From Phycisphaerales bacterium (lineage in GTDB: Bacteria; Planctomycetota; Phycisphaerae; Phycisphaerales; SM1A02): a DNA stretch of 64,000 bases. The stretch's first letter is position 1. Each line of letters begins with the position of its first letter. Made by a program: the position numbers and the translations under genes. The stretch covers positions 62,001 to 126,000 of the forward strand of contig SIAP01000003.1 of the NCBI GenBank assembly GCA_009691725.1. The letters are read 5' to 3'. Below the pieces are notes generated by a model, which saw only the letters and a program-made list of their open reading frames with translations, was not told the DNA's origin and did not search any database. Below are positions 29,968 to 34,742 of the stretch, in pieces.

Positions 29968-30564
29968 TTAGGAGGGGCGGCGAACCTTTGAGGATGCGCG
30001 TGCGCGTCCCGTGCCGTTGGGTTTCTCTGTCGATGGACTGCGCTTGGCGATGCGCGCCCAACCATGTGAATGAACTCGAGAGACGCCCCGCCGCGCCACT
30101 TTGGTTTTCGGTTGTTCGACGAGACCGGCGTGATGGACCATCCCGATATAGACCTCGTAGTCCGCTTCAATGTCGAGGTGGCGAACCAGTTCGCACGCGA
30201 TGTATCCGAGTGCACGCATCGGAACTGGAGACCCGCCAGGCACAATGAGATGCGGAATCGTGAGAAACGCATCGACACCTTGATCGGGTGCCGTTGCAAA
30301 CATCATTCTTGTTGCACGGTCGTCATGGGCGAGCACACAAATCGCAAAGTTTCGGCTGTCACGAATGACGGGAGAGAGTGATTGACCCTTCTCCATCGCG
30401 ACGAGCATCATTGGAGGATGCATCGCCACCTGCTGCACGCACTTCACCACGACAGCACTGCGGAGTTCGCCGTAGGCAGAGCTCAGAAGGAATGTCGTCG
30501 CAGGAACGAGATTGAGCACATGCTCCACGGAGTCTCTGTTTGCGGCTGGTCGGTCAGTCTGCAT
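29968..30564 (-). CDS. flavin reductase family protein (FMN-binding split barrel)
   Basis: A 198-residue protein of the flavin reductase or DIM6/NTAB type, which binds FMN and often supplies reduced flavin. The N-terminal part has VPATTFLLSSAYGELRSAVVV, MLVAMEKGQSLSPVIRDSRNFAICVLA, and a later GYIACELVRHLDIEADYEVYIG stretch, all fitting the fold. The C-terminal 40 residues are a basic tail unlike the family. ATG at 30564 was chosen because a promoter lies at 30602-30629, making a GTG at 30630 impossible on that transcript. First gene of the operon with the amidohydrolase and the planctomycete pair. Confidence 0.83.
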   Translation of the reverse strand: MQTDRPAANRDSVEHVLNLVPATTFLLSSAYGELRSAVVVKCVQQVAMHPPMMLVAMEKGQSLSPVIRDSRNFAICVLAHDDRATRMMFATAPDQGVDAFLTIPHLIVPGGSPVPMRALGYIACELVRHLDIEADYEVYIGMVHHAGLVEQPKTKVARRGVSRVHSHGWARIAKRSPSTEKPNGTGRARASSKVRRPS

Positions 30565-30601
30565 GAAGTAAGAAAAATCCCAAAGAACACGCCTCGAGCG
30601 G

Positions 30602-30629
30602 ATAATACTCTGGTATTCGGGTTTGTCCA
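30602..30629 (-). promoter_or_regulatory. promoter of the flavin reductase operon
   Basis: On the minus strand TGGACA (30629-30624, 5 of 6 matches), a 16-bp spacer and TATTAT (30607-30602, 5 of 6) give a good sigma-70-type promoter. The predicted start is near 30595, about 31 bases before the ATG at 30564. Confidence 0.65.
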
Positions 30630-30728
30630 CAAATCTATTCTCTGCAACCAGTTACGCCAATACCTATTGGGCACCATGGTTCTAGGACCACGATTCGTGC
30701 AGCGCGATGTCGCGATTCGCATCAATTT

Positions 30729-30768
30729 TGTTGTAAAGTGTTGCATTGTGGGGCACAGTGGGTATAGT
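30729..30768 (+). promoter_or_regulatory. MraZ-type operator (four pentamers, 10-bp period) over the mraZ promoter
   Basis: TGTTG (30729), TGTTG (30739), TGGGG (30749) and TGGGT (30759) start at exact 10-bp intervals. MraZ is known to bind TGGGN repeats spaced by 5 nt, which gives the same period. A -10 box TATAGT (30763-30768) overlaps the last repeat, with TTGCAT (30741-30746) as a weak -35 inside the second. Binding would block the promoter, consistent with autorepression. Confidence 0.75.
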
Positions 30769-30795
30769 TCACCACGACTCACATGGTCCACACCA

Positions 30796-31266
30796 ATGCT
30801 CTTCCTCGGCGAATACGAACACAGTCTCGACTCGAAACAACGTCTCGCCATACCAAGCGAGTTGCGCGAAGTGCTCAATCCAGCGGTCAACGGGGACTCG
30901 TTTGTTGCAGTCCCGGGCGCGGACGAGGTACTCACACTCTGGCCCAACGGAACGTTCGAGAAATTGGCGATGGATCATGGCGGGTCGTTGATCGGCGACG
31001 AAGTGCTTCGGCAATTCGAGCGATCTTTCTTCAGTCAAGCAGCACGCTGTCAACTGGATTCTGCCGGTCGCGTGCGCATTCCGGATCGACTGCTCACGCG
31101 CTTTGGATTGGCGGGTGCAGTCGTCATCTTGGGAGTTCGAGACCACTTGGAGTTGATCGCGTCTGCGCGGTGGAAGAGTCAGCAGAAGGAACGGAATTCT
31201 TCTGCGGGCGAACTTTTTCGTCAGGCCAATCAGATTATGAAATCACGATCGGGTGGGGCGCGGTGA
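30796..31266 (+). CDS. mraZ: transcriptional regulator MraZ
   Basis: A 156-residue DNA-binding protein with two SpoVT/AbrB-like halves. The first is MLFLGEYEHSLDSKQRLAIP at the N-terminus, and the second is CQLDSAGRVRIPDRLLTRFGL near residue 80. The D-x-x-x-R motif of each half is kept. MraZ normally heads the division and cell-wall (dcw) cluster and represses it. Here no rsmH, ftsL or mur gene follows; a structured non-coding region and csrA come next. The start at 30796 follows a promoter with a repeat operator, which supports autoregulation. The stop shares bases with an ATG of a 29-codon frame (TGATG at 31264), not called as a gene. Confidence 0.95.
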   Translation: MLFLGEYEHSLDSKQRLAIPSELREVLNPAVNGDSFVAVPGADEVLTLWPNGTFEKLAMDHGGSLIGDEVLRQFERSFFSQAARCQLDSAGRVRIPDRLLTRFGLAGAVVILGVRDHLELIASARWKSQQKERNSSAGELFRQANQIMKSRSGGAR

Positions 31267-31365
31267 TGGATCGCCGCAACCACTTCGACGCCGCTTCGCC
31301 ACGGATGGCGTCGCGCAGAGACAACCCTCGGACCCCGCACGGACGCGGCTTCTGAGCAGACAACA

Positions 31366-31498
31366 GGGTCAAGGATGACCCAAATCGTTCGCACGGATAA
31401 GCCATGGATGGCAGGCTGTGCGAATAGTCGGGCGGAATCACTTCCGCTCGATTATCAACCTCTTGCCCCTGCGTCACTGGCCCGACGCAGGGGTTTTT
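31366..31498 (+). ncRNA. candidate CsrA-binding RNA, three hairpins plus terminator
   Basis: Hairpin A, 31366-31381: 6-bp stem, loop AGGA. Hairpin B, 31388-31424: 7-bp outer stem TTCGCAC/GTGCGAA, with ACGGA at its start and an inner stem GCC/GGC around the loop ATGGAT (31404-31409). Hairpin C, 31430-31449: 8-bp stem with loop TCAC. The terminator ends the region. CsrA family proteins recognise A-N-GGA in hairpin loops; AAGGA, ACGGA and ATGGA are all here, and csrA lies 290 bp downstream. It could be a separate sRNA or the 3' UTR of mraZ; no internal promoter was found. The RNA role is inference. Confidence 0.4.
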
Positions 31499-31500
31499 GT
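31466..31500 (+). terminator. intrinsic terminator after mraZ / candidate RNA
   Basis: CCCCTGCGTC (31466-31475) and GACGCAGGGG (31484-31493) form a perfect 10-bp stem with an 8-nt loop, followed by TTTTTG. A strong rho-independent terminator on the plus strand. Confidence 0.93.
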
Positions 31501-31635
31501 TTGCATTTCCGGCATTGATGGCTGATTCTGCAAAAAAGATGGCATTCTCAGCTGGCACAGTTGGGAGATCGACCCAGCGTGAGTCGCATCCCATAACGGG
31601 GTATTTCGTCAAATTGTGATTTGGGAAGAATGATG

Positions 31636-31787
31636 CGACCGATCGAGCGATACCCTTCAAGAAGGTCAGCCGCTCGGTCGATGAATGTCATCCGAGTATT
31701 CGCAGGGAGGACGCATGGTGCGTCCAAGGCGAGCTGAGCAAGTCGGTGGGCGACGCCCCACCGTATCAAGGGCAGGAGGTCCGCAGC
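31636..31787 (+). promoter_or_regulatory. structured csrA leader with three hairpins and a CsrA-like ribosome binding site
   Basis: Structure 1, 31636-31680: CGACCG/CGGTCG and AGCG/CGCT stems around an inner CCTTC/GAAGG hairpin. Structure 2, 31709-31725: perfect 7-bp stem GGACGCA/TGCGTCC. Structure 3, 31745-31762: GGTGGG/CCCACC. The Shine-Dalgarno AGGAGGT (31774-31780) lies 7 bases before ATG and carries AGGA, the core CsrA site, so autorepression of csrA is plausible. The 138 bases before (31499-31635) hold no recognisable gene. Confidence 0.5.
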
Positions 31788-32021
31788 ATGTTGGTCATCA
31801 CCAGACGCGAAGGCGAAGAAGTCGTAATCGGAAACCCCGCTTCACCAATCGGGATCGTCCGTATCGCATCGATCAAGGGGGACCGCGTGCGGCTTGCTTT
31901 TGAGTTCCCTCGCGAGGTTGCGGTGCATCGCAAGGAAGTCGCTGAGCAGATTATTGCCGGCGCGAATGACCCAAGCAAGAATGTCATCGGTCAGATCCGT
32001 CCGGCCGAAGGCGGTGCTTGA
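31788..32021 (+). CDS. csrA: carbon storage regulator CsrA
   Basis: A 77-residue RNA-binding protein. It begins MLVITRREGEEVVIGN, the family start, and has the IKGDRVRLAFEFPREVAVHRKEV core with the conserved Arg of VAVHR needed for RNA binding. CsrA dimers block or expose ribosome binding sites of target mRNAs. The tail beyond residue 60 (ANDPSKNVIGQIRPAEGG) is longer than in E. coli (61 aa). A strong Shine-Dalgarno and a hairpin-rich leader precede it. fliW, the usual antagonist outside gamma-proteobacteria, is not in the window. Confidence 0.96.
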   Translation: MLVITRREGEEVVIGNPASPIGIVRIASIKGDRVRLAFEFPREVAVHRKEVAEQIIAGANDPSKNVIGQIRPAEGGA

Positions 32022-32102
32022 AATCGCTGGTCTCTGATTCGCTGGTCTCTGTCTGCGGGAGGGGGTTGCGATCACGCGACGCGATTGCGCCGGACCTGCG
32101 CC

Positions 32103-32369
32103 TCAATTGAGCGCTCGCACCTCAAGCACTTCAGGGATGCGCTCCCGCAGTTGTCGGGCAATCCCAGTTTGCAATGTCATGTTGCTTGAAGGGCATCCGA
32201 TACACGCGCCGTGAAACCGAACTTCAACGATGCCGTCGTGGACGCGGACGACCTCGACATCGCCGCCGTCAGCCTGAATATCAGGGCGAATCAAGTCGAT
32301 CACCGCCCGCACTCGTGTCAGGAGGTCGTTCTTTGAATTCTCTGATTCGACGCTGCGGGATGGCACCAC
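32103..32369 (-). CDS. NifU C-terminal-domain protein (Fe-S cluster carrier)
   Basis: An 88-residue stand-alone NifU-C/NfuA-type domain. The motif IRPDIQADGGDVEVVRV near residue 30 and the cluster-ligand pair CIGCPSS near 58 are diagnostic. Such proteins carry 4Fe-4S clusters to targets. The start is one of two tandem GTG codons (32369 or 32366). It is convergent to csrA and divergent from the lipoprotein gene; rimO and lipoate enzymes in the window are possible recipients, but that is speculation. Confidence 0.93.
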   Translation of the reverse strand: MVPSRSVESENSKNDLLTRVRAVIDLIRPDIQADGGDVEVVRVHDGIVEVRFHGACIGCPSSNMTLQTGIARQLRERIPEVLEVRALN

Positions 32370-32403
32370 GATGAGTCTAATCAGGTTTTCTTACACTCAC
32401 GCG

Positions 32404-33834
32404 ATGCAGGTCAGCGTTGCTTCGTACCTTTGGACTGTCGCGGTGGTCATCCTCTCGTGTGGATGTGCAGCCACTCCCGCCGGTGATCCACTGCAATCCC
32501 TGAGTCGTACGGATCTCGTGCCAGCACGCCAGATTGCGGCGATGAGATTGCTCGACGCGGATCCATCCTCTGCCGAGTACCTCAAGGCACTGCGCAAGAT
32601 GATCGTGCAACCCGGGTTCTCTCTTGAACTTCGCAATGAAGCGTGGGAGCGTCTCCTCAAGAGTGATCCAGTTGGGTTGAGGACATCGCTCGAACTCAAC
32701 CTACCGCGCATGATGATCTACGAGTGGCGGCGCGAGGTCTGCGTGCGGCTCGGTCGGCTCGGATGGAAAGACATGACACCAACCCTCGTTCGTGCGTGGG
32801 CGGTTCCGGTGATCGCGTACGGCAACGATTTGTGGCAGCGTCCCGAATACGACGCACTGGTGGCGCTCTGGGGGAAAGAGCGCGTTCCCCAAGTCTTGTA
32901 TGAATTGTTCCTCAAGAGTGATCCGATCAAGGAAGCGAATCTGCGGAGTCGCTGCTGGGAACTCTTGCTCGCCACTGGGCAACGCGATCGCATTCTTGCG
33001 CTGCTCGCTGATGAGCAAACCGCGACGACGGATTCGTTCATTCTGGACATGCGCAGATCGGCGAGCGATTTGGGAATCATCCCTCGCAATCGCGAGGAAA
33101 TCTTGTGGATCCGCGCGCTGCGAACTCCAGCGCATCGAGCACTGTGGGATGCCGCCCGTGCGGGCGTGGCGCAACTGCCAGCAGATGTGCGAGCATCGCT
33201 CGAACCGCGCGACATTGCAATCATCGTGGCGGCCGCGAAGTACAGCCCGCACTTGCTTGGGCGATCCCGTGATGATCTCTTTGCCGAGGTGAGCACCCGT
33301 TTGCGATCGGAAGGAACTCGTCGATACAGCGCATCGTTCGAGGGGTATGGCACGCAGCTTGCAGAGACACCTCGCGCGCACGAGAGCGAGATGCGGTGGG
33401 GGGATTGTGCGGCAGTCCTCATCGCGCTCTCGGCGCTCGAAGAGGGCACCATTCGATCGCACCTCTTTGACATTGCGGATCGCGATCAGTCCGATCGGCT
33501 GACCGAATATGGCGGACTGCTGCGACTGGACGAACACGGGAGATACGAACTGGTGGAGTTCAGTCCGCAGTCGCGCGGGAGCGATGTGCGTTACGAGGCA
33601 TCGCAGAAGATGTTTGATGCGGGGTATGACGCGCTCTTCCATTTTCACAACCACGCGCAGGCGTATGACAATCAGCGGTACGCCGGTCCTCATCTCGGCG
33701 ACTTCCATTACGCAGACAACACGGGAGTCAATGCACTCGTGTTCACATTCGTCGATCACAACACACTCAATGCAGACTTCTACCGGCACGGTCAGGTGGT
33801 GATCGATCTGGGAACAGTCAAACGACAGGAGTAA
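32404..33834 (+). CDS. lipoprotein with a C-terminal JAB/JAMM-like histidine cluster, unknown function
   Basis: A 476-residue lipoprotein with lipobox ILSCGC (Cys20 from this start). Residues 30-260 are helical and may form repeat-like helix pairs (ARQIAAMRLLD, LRNEAWERLLK, SRCWELLLATG). The C-terminal 110 residues contain ALFHFHNHAQ near 412, then YAGPHLGDFHYA and FTFVDHNTLNADFYRH. An H-x-H plus downstream Asp layout recalls JAMM metalloproteases, but the conserved Ser is not present, so this is only a suggestion. The stop overlaps the dapF start (TAATG). An ATG 33 bp upstream (32371) is possible but would lengthen the signal. Confidence 0.6.
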   Translation: MQVSVASYLWTVAVVILSCGCAATPAGDPLQSLSRTDLVPARQIAAMRLLDADPSSAEYLKALRKMIVQPGFSLELRNEAWERLLKSDPVGLRTSLELNLPRMMIYEWRREVCVRLGRLGWKDMTPTLVRAWAVPVIAYGNDLWQRPEYDALVALWGKERVPQVLYELFLKSDPIKEANLRSRCWELLLATGQRDRILALLADEQTATTDSFILDMRRSASDLGIIPRNREEILWIRALRTPAHRALWDAARAGVAQLPADVRASLEPRDIAIIVAAAKYSPHLLGRSRDDLFAEVSTRLRSEGTRRYSASFEGYGTQLAETPRAHESEMRWGDCAAVLIALSALEEGTIRSHLFDIADRDQSDRLTEYGGLLRLDEHGRYELVEFSPQSRGSDVRYEASQKMFDAGYDALFHFHNHAQAYDNQRYAGPHLGDFHYADNTGVNALVFTFVDHNTLNADFYRHGQVVIDLGTVKRQE

Positions 33835-34742
33835 TGGCAGTGCGCTTTACAAAAATGCACGGCATCGGCAATGACTACATATTCGTCGACACTGCGCAGG
33901 AAACCGTAGAGGATCCCGCATCGCTCGCACGAGCCATCAGTGATCGACACACCGGGGCGGGATCGGATGGACTGATCTTGATTGGTCCTCCCACGGATTC
34001 ATCGTGTGCAGATGCACGGATGCGGATGTTCAATGCCGACGGAAGCGAAGCAGAGATGTGTGGCAATGGGATTCGATGTGTCGCCAAGTTCGTCGTGGAT
34101 CGCGGCCTGTCGGGCGAGAATCCACTGCGCATCGAAACGGGGCGTGGGGTATTGGAAGTGCGCTGGTTGGTTGGGTGCGACGGCCTCGTTGATGATGTGG
34201 AAGTCGATATGGGTGCGCCGATGTTGGAATCCGCTGCGATGGGCGTGCGCTGGAGCGGTGTGGATGGGACGGAGCGAATTGTCGCACGGAGATGGCCGGG
34301 CGCAGACCTTCTGGCACCATTCGCTGTGGAGCCAACGGCGACCGTGGTGTCCATGGGCAATCCGCACATCATTTTCTGGGCGAAGGACGTCGCGGCGGTG
34401 CCGCTGGAATCATTCGGGGCGTCGATCGAGCGCCACGAGTTTTTCCCACAGCGCATCAATGTGCACATCGTCGAGGTTCAATCGCCACGCGAGTTGCGAA
34501 TGCGAACGTGGGAGCGCGGATCCGGCATCACGCGTGCATGCGGAACCGGCGCGAGTGCCGTCTGTGTTGCGGGGGTGCTCGAGTCGCGGAGCGATCGCGC
34601 TGTTGTGGCTCATCTTCCCGGTGGAACACTCGCGCTTCGATGGGACGAGACCTCGGGTCGCGTCCTGATGCGCGGAGCCGCAACGCACGTGTTCGATGGC
34701 AAATGGAATCAACGCACTGCTGGACTCCTGCATGGCGCGTAG
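33834..34742 (+). CDS. dapF: diaminopimelate epimerase
   Basis: Converts LL- to meso-diaminopimelate for peptidoglycan and lysine. The 302-residue protein begins VRFTKMHGIGNDYIFVD and keeps the two catalytic cysteines, in EMCGNGIRC near residue 80 and TRACGTGASAVC near 238. Length is slightly above the family norm (about 275). It overlaps the lipoprotein gene by one base and the M20 gene by 11 bp. Lying at the head of an operon with an M20 hydrolase and class III aminotransferase, it could belong to a DAP or amino-acid module. Proline-racemase-like activity is a remote alternative. Confidence 0.92.
   Translation: MAVRFTKMHGIGNDYIFVDTAQETVEDPASLARAISDRHTGAGSDGLILIGPPTDSSCADARMRMFNADGSEAEMCGNGIRCVAKFVVDRGLSGENPLRIETGRGVLEVRWLVGCDGLVDDVEVDMGAPMLESAAMGVRWSGVDGTERIVARRWPGADLLAPFAVEPTATVVSMGNPHIIFWAKDVAAVPLESFGASIERHEFFPQRINVHIVEVQSPRELRMRTWERGSGITRACGTGASAVCVAGVLESRSDRAVVAHLPGGTLALRWDETSGRVLMRGAATHVFDGKWNQRTAGLLHGA

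Follow-up and report, generated by a model that had tools for sequence, protein, structure and literature searches.

What does MraZ govern in a bacterium whose mraZ is not followed by rsmH? The locus that raises this question lies in a window of 64,000 nucleotides, the whole stretch of DNA analysed here (G000:C13:62001-126000), from a Phycisphaerales assembly of 2.07 Mb in 51 contigs that is 92.6% complete. Among the named relatives, those with MraZ proteins 68-92% identical to that of the window are metagenome-assembled freshwater Phycisphaerales and other planctomycetes, some of whose record names (e.g., Singulisphaera) are depositors' labels. Two genes on the same strand frame the region of interest:

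30796..31266 (including the stop codon), plus strand: mraZ, 156 amino acids (PF02381, 78.3 bits, 4.2e-22)
31788..32021, plus strand: csrA2, a divergent CsrA paralog with a 4-residue insertion and VHR retained (PF02599, 5.3e-15)

The solved MraZ chains 9qlr and 1n0e match the window protein at 1e-8 to 1e-7. On the 3' side of csrA2 there follow a NifU-like gene on the opposite strand, an open reading frame without assignment and the gene for diaminopimelate epimerase. The mraZ-rsmH pairing of the dcw cluster was not found in any of the 90 mraZ loci sampled from this family; the positive control for this search, 20 loci of other orders, returned rsmH after mraZ in 18. The window's own genome keeps an rsmH on contig C45, without any FtsZ/tubulin match. 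An MraZ operator had been recognised upstream of mraZ; its setting, namely an array of GGA hairpins at the end of mraZ and a link to csrA, escaped that reading and is the finding reported here.

The MraZ operator and the mraZ promoter

The original prediction read the pentamers TGTTG, TGTTG, TGGGG and TGGGT, starting at 30729, 30739, 30749 and 30759, as an MraZ operator with an exact 10-bp period over the mraZ promoter. All four are present exactly as claimed, and the parts of operator and promoter are:

30729..30733, plus strand: weak upstream box TGTTG, the fourth of the operator; its TG core is kept in 65 of 89 family loci, and TGKK in 41 of 89
30739..30743, plus strand: operator box TGTTG, also the start of the -35; TGTTG in 82 of 89
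30741..30746, plus strand: -35 element TTGCAT; TTG stands 16 bp (23 loci) or 17 bp (63 loci) before TANNNT, 86 of 89
30749..30753, plus strand: operator box TGGGG, within the promoter spacer; TGGG in 81 of 89
30759..30763, plus strand: operator box TGGGT, abutting the -10; TGGG in 79 of 89
30763..30768, plus strand: -10 element TATAGT, with a 16-bp spacer to the -35

The four units form the sole four-unit TGKK run at exact 10-bp spacing on either strand of the 64 kb, and such a run arose 3 times when the 250 bp before mraZ were shuffled 20,000 times at constant dinucleotide content. As predicted, the last unit overlaps the -10, TGGGT sharing one base (30763) with TATAGT. The operator appears to overlie the only recognisable promoter of mraZ, with one box serving as -35, one in the spacer, one at the -10 and a weaker one upstream. 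A simple promoter scan of the window did not report this promoter because TTGCAT fits just three of the six positions of the scan's first hexamer. The other run in the window, three TGKK units at 10-bp spacing at 34057 (plus strand) inside the diaminopimelate epimerase gene, is probably due to chance.

The family sample comprises 90 mraZ loci from 89 genomes and 39 of 45 genera (g13, g16, g20, g30, g34 and g41 lie outside it), and 89 upstream regions were scored, L031 with its 9 upstream bases being left out. Most often the longest TGKK run has three or four units, with 36 regions each; 10 regions reach five units, 6 stop at two and 1 has a single unit. Runs of at least three units thus occur in 82 of the 89, against 0.6 per set in shuffles, and an array of MraZ type with spacing like the published one is kept in relatives, so that the prediction passes the check on relatives which it had itself named as able to refute it. 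The TG core of the 30729 unit is found in 17 of 18 sequences of the window's genus, and 33 of 89 regions show a TG core in a unit 3' of the -10. In six g6 loci (L105, L107, L109, L110, L113, L115) the upstream unit is absent and the downstream one takes its place, so that about four boxes seem to be usual.

Are the two TGTTG units products of drift, as had been supposed? Neither bears this out. At 30739, TGTTG is the near-constant form, kept because its TTG is the -35 box; the unit is, from its conservation and its fixed distance to TANNNT, a predicted -35 held by selection, and the MraZ boxes are therefore threaded through the promoter. The 30729 unit, with its conserved TG core, is a weak box, not a decayed strong one. 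Three loci lack TANNNT at 16-17 bp (L075, L094 with TGTAG at that unit, and L108), and in L057 and L060 the TGTTG unit occupies a different position in the array, with the TANNNT shifted along with it.

The published MraZ core is (AAAGTGKN3)3, where K is G or T (as quoted in PMC5282649, with a similar form in PMC8475190), so TGT was already allowed. PMC7761207 describes the Burkholderia mraZ operator as four 7-nt repeats with 3-nt spacers lying after the -10, and in E. coli K-12 the three TGGG units likewise lie after the mraZ -10. The window shares with the operators of Mollicutes, E. coli and Burkholderia the TG(G/T)-type direct repeats with a 10-bp period before mraZ. However, it differs from the latter two in that its boxes are woven through the -35, spacer and -10, and in that no rsmH follows its mraZ. 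Alternatively, the pentamers might belong to a bare promoter (TTGCAA / TANNNT) whose spacer is G-rich by chance and to which no regulator binds, and TTG and TANNNT are indeed real promoter elements at mraZ. However, the spacer TG cores recur at 10-bp spacing in 88-89 of 89 regions, which a sigma-70-type promoter does not need, and the units look like the mraZ repeats of E. coli and fit the consensus published for MraZ, leaving a promoter without MraZ very improbable.

The operator is of an ordinary type, though its construction is better than the original prediction held. Taken alone it would be one more MraZ site, yet it offers a case of one box that may be readable by both MraZ and a sigma factor. 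The natural reading, judged from the DNA, would be autorepression of mraZ by MraZ. A wider regulon, for which a genome scan had been proposed, did not emerge: the perfect three-unit pattern has one match in the 2.07-Mb genome (92.6% complete), the mraZ site itself, and one further match with one mismatch. With up to two mismatches there are 63 sites, barely above the 45 for the reversed pattern used as control, and so no second clear target was found in this genome.

A conserved element, TC[TCG]CGGAC, keeps set distances to the MraZ array; 38 of 89 loci have it, where about 0.03 per locus would be expected. In the window's genus it lies about 57-58 bp upstream of the operator (TCTCGGAC; the window copy, near 30682, is TCTAGGAC). 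It is found at -42 in genus g42, at +40 in L065, L068, L069, L072 and L098, and on the reverse strand in L105, L107, L109 and L115. Perhaps it is the site of a second regulator.

The GGA hairpin array at the end of mraZ

The mraZ transcript carries, from its last codons onwards, a series of hairpins with ANGGA(N) loops, a form that we take to be that of a CsrA site:

31182..31205, plus strand: GGA hairpin in the mraZ coding end, loop ACGGAA; 9-bp stem, z -3.3
31260..31277, plus strand: GGA hairpin across the mraZ stop codon, with AUGGAU as loop; GGA unchanged in all 18 genus sequences
31297..31310, plus strand: GGA hairpin, loop ACGGAU; helix 2, 5 of 9 pairs with both-side changes
31335..31348, plus strand: GGA hairpin, loop ACGGAC; outer helix 3, 6 of 8 pairs with both-side changes
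31366..31381, plus strand: GGA hairpin GGGTC-AAGGAT-GACCC; helix 4, 100% of cells paired, z -3.6
31387..31425, plus strand: compound hairpin, tip GCC-ATGGAT-GGC, with a second GGA in the stem; z -4.5
31424..31455, plus strand: 14-bp perfect hairpin, past the array and before the terminator, outside the strict GGA-loop definition; z -7.4
31465..31500, plus strand: intrinsic terminator closing the mraZ/GGA transcript; 11-bp stem then U5, z -5.3

A strict hairpin was defined as a hexaloop ANGGAN closed by at least four pairs. Five of the eight such sites on both strands of the 64 kb fall in 31191-31371, one in the mraZ coding end, one over the stop codon and three beyond. The RNA from 31264 to 31505 folds at -111 kcal/mol (z -5.9). 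The 14-bp hairpin at 31424-31455 perhaps serves RNase III processing or stability. The terminator stem is preserved in the 16-17 genus sequences that reach that far, and a terminator-like site occurs in 70 of 87 family loci.

The array is a family trait. The 82 mraZ-csrA gaps hold 202 strict hairpins on the mraZ strand and 1 on the other, where shuffles give 2.4; this strand bias, together with the shuffles, rules out a chance outcome of GC-rich DNA. In a stretch that starts 120 nt upstream of the mraZ stop and ends 420 nt downstream of it, three loci with short stretches being excluded, all 87 usable loci have at least one strict hairpin, 76 at least two and 51 at least three, 11 having a single one; the genomes counted are related, and the numbers are not independent of one another. 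Strict hairpins reach 5.9 per kb in the mraZ 3' region of 23 named loci, compared with 0.049 per kb elsewhere. A looser hairpin definition gives a smaller excess, 416 against 168 in shuffles, with 201 in the mraZ coding sequence.

Within the window's genus, four of the loops keep their GGA in all 18 sequences while the stems vary. RNAalifold on these sequences finds both-side changes at 17 of 43 pairs. In the four named GGA helices 92.8% of cells are paired, versus 34-49% when the helices are slid, and covariation amounts to 0.359 versus 0.150 in shuffled alignments, none of 500 shuffles being as high.

How is the array transcribed? The promoter pattern TTG-N16-18-TANNNT, the one type searched for, is found within 110 nt upstream of mraZ in 79 of 90 loci, and in none of the 90 within the final 200 nt of mraZ. 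The array therefore seems to depend on the mraZ promoter. Rfam returned no match up to E = 1 in the interval 30301-32500, and over 18 loci a single sub-threshold match, to an unrelated family, so that no known RNA family was matched.

csrA beside mraZ and the two kinds of CsrA

A csrA lies downstream of mraZ within the fetched stretch in 82 of 90 family loci, co-directional in 35 and convergent in 47. Six of the eight loci without one have only 523-1087 bases after the mraZ start (L021, L060, L084, L095, L104, L112); in L102 csrA is just upstream of mraZ and in L111 about 13 kb off. Could the array then be a csrA leader for CsrA autoregulation? In the window csrA does lie downstream on the same strand. 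However, a terminator stands between array and csrA there, the hairpins remain on the mraZ strand in the 47 of 82 loci where csrA is convergent, and the loci of other families keep them as a group although all 18 lack csrA in the stretch. A leader role is scarcely credible, and was rejected on gene orientation.

Those 18 loci, from four other families of the order, have neither csrA nor rsmH in a 4.5-kb stretch. Strict hairpins still amount to 4.07 per kb in their mraZ 3' regions, compared with 0.083 elsewhere, and a pattern search sees the operator in 13 of them and not in 5. Other orders of the class, sampled with 20 loci, show a weak excess (14 hairpins, 1.7 versus 0.16 per kb), and a loose pattern recovers the operator in 4 of the 20. 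Since hairpins and operator persist without an adjacent csrA, the array and the promoter-threaded operator belong to mraZ in the order; on this gene content, the csrA neighbour looks like a family-level addition. The densest array among the loci of other families and orders is that of L120 (family f4), where the 500 nt after mraZ hold seven strict GGA hairpins and a count over 350 nt gives five, csrA not adjoining.

CsrA matches in the family are of two kinds, one scoring high (about 74-90 bits) and the other low (about 50-60 bits), the kind being set by the best E-value (1e-16 line) and not by a tree. Among the part of the places that was listed, the window included, the csrA adjoining mraZ is of the low-scoring kind. 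In an alignment for which 16 of the 82 mraZ-side csrA were chosen, and from which 5 of 20 fetched csrA stretches were dropped for yielding no protein under the start pattern used, this kind shares the 4-residue insertion and a common sequence (MLVITRREGEEV...), and has VHR in most members (VFR in L106, VNR in L093). The arginine of VHR is presumably the RNA-binding R44 of CsrA.

The two kinds also differ in their partner. By hand count, CsrA is present in 177 of 181 genomes. The high-scoring kind occurs in 132, of which 130 have FliW (the exceptions being G041 and G114), and in pairs compared by eye its gene lies within a few hundred bases of fliW. The 45 genomes with low-scoring CsrA only, again counted by hand, include none with FliW. 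G092 has a FliW fragment and no CsrA. In the window's own genome, 92.6% complete, no FliW and no FtsZ match was found, and the sole CsrA is the low-scoring divergent kind. Family f3 of the order (G203, G242, G355, G236) has ordinary CsrA only, yet three of its four loci carry 2-3 hairpins; the array therefore need not be dedicated to CsrA2.

A candidate CsrA decoy in the mraZ transcript

Why would an mRNA carry so many GGA loops beyond its stop codon? The reading that we favor, with a probability of roughly 0.6, is that of an MraZ-gated, mRNA-borne CsrA decoy, in which the operator would set mraZ mRNA and decoy together, MraZ binding, CsrA binding and sequestration being deduced from the sequence. 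Because the boxes overlie the -35, spacer and -10, bound MraZ and RNA polymerase would compete for the same promoter DNA, and MraZ would repress by excluding the polymerase. The transcript would comprise the MraZ coding part, then the chain of ANGGA hairpins from the last codons to the terminator. Its 3' part, either within the mRNA or cut free by putative processing, may bind and sequester CsrA, drawing it off its targets; the likeliest protein to be captured would be the divergent CsrA2 encoded alongside. MraZ would thereby set CsrA activity, taking the position that belongs to Gac/BarA-UvrY in the control of gammaproteobacterial CsrB/RsmZ. There may also be feedback, should CsrA on the coding-end hairpins alter the mraZ mRNA.

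Alternatively, and this is the main rival, there may be plain autorepression of mraZ alone, with the GGA hairpins as CsrA sites that regulate the mraZ mRNA itself (its stability, termination or 3' processing) and no decoy. The genus hairpins begin in the mraZ coding end and span the stop codon, and the array remains at mraZ even in loci without a neighbouring csrA, as such a role would have it. However, CsrA control of a single mRNA usually needs fewer sites than the several found in the non-coding 3' part up to the terminator, and CsrA normally acts near ribosome-binding sites. A role confined to the mRNA is thus unlikely, though a serious contender to the decoy.

How does the proposed decoy compare with known systems? 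It resembles CsrB/CsrC and RsmX/Y/Z in its multiple GGA sites placed in series in hairpin loops and in its terminal intrinsic terminator. Unlike them, the array is part of the mraZ transcript and belongs to another phylum, neither a promoter of its own nor an Rfam match was seen, and its candidate controller is MraZ and not BarA-UvrY. According to PMC4682653, BarA-UvrY is characteristic of gammaproteobacteria and anti-correlated with FliW, and Planctomycetes are among the possible users of FliW. For Vibrio fischeri, CsrA/RsmA RNAs derived from 3'-UTRs have been predicted, and would be the first examples if validated, according to PMC5568370. The array likewise has its GGA loops towards the 3' end of an mRNA. 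However, unlike these predictions for one species, it accompanies one gene across a family and, more sparsely, across an order, and lies beside a CsrA paralog. RNA pieces cut from within the E. coli mraZ mRNA (PMC6156199) are a precedent for stable fragments, not for CsrA sites. The Planctomycetes literature searched, with subscription journals mostly outside it, contained no description of an mraZ-csrA or CsrA-RNA arrangement.

If the decoy reading is true, MraZ, whose phenotype is little known, would gain a plausible output in bacteria without FtsZ, and the Planctomycetota, for which FliW alone has been suggested so far, would gain a candidate RNA antagonist of CsrA and thus a CsrA decoy system outside the Proteobacteria. 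A broader proposal, to be held tentatively and at slightly less than even odds, is that the MraZ of this family left the division cluster and now gates a CsrA-sequestering RNA in its own 3' end, together with a second, FliW-free CsrA, in a GacA/UvrY-like role and against a background of FtsZ-less division.

The CsrA-FliW pair is the remaining point of comparison. The ordinary CsrA of the family adjoins FliW, as in that pair, whereas CsrA2 has the 4-residue insertion, adjoins mraZ and has no FliW partner. The csrA2 leader (31700-31787) carries one GGA within an AGGAGG ribosome-binding site as well as a GGACGC-ATGG-TGCGTCC hairpin, and csrA2 may therefore control itself.
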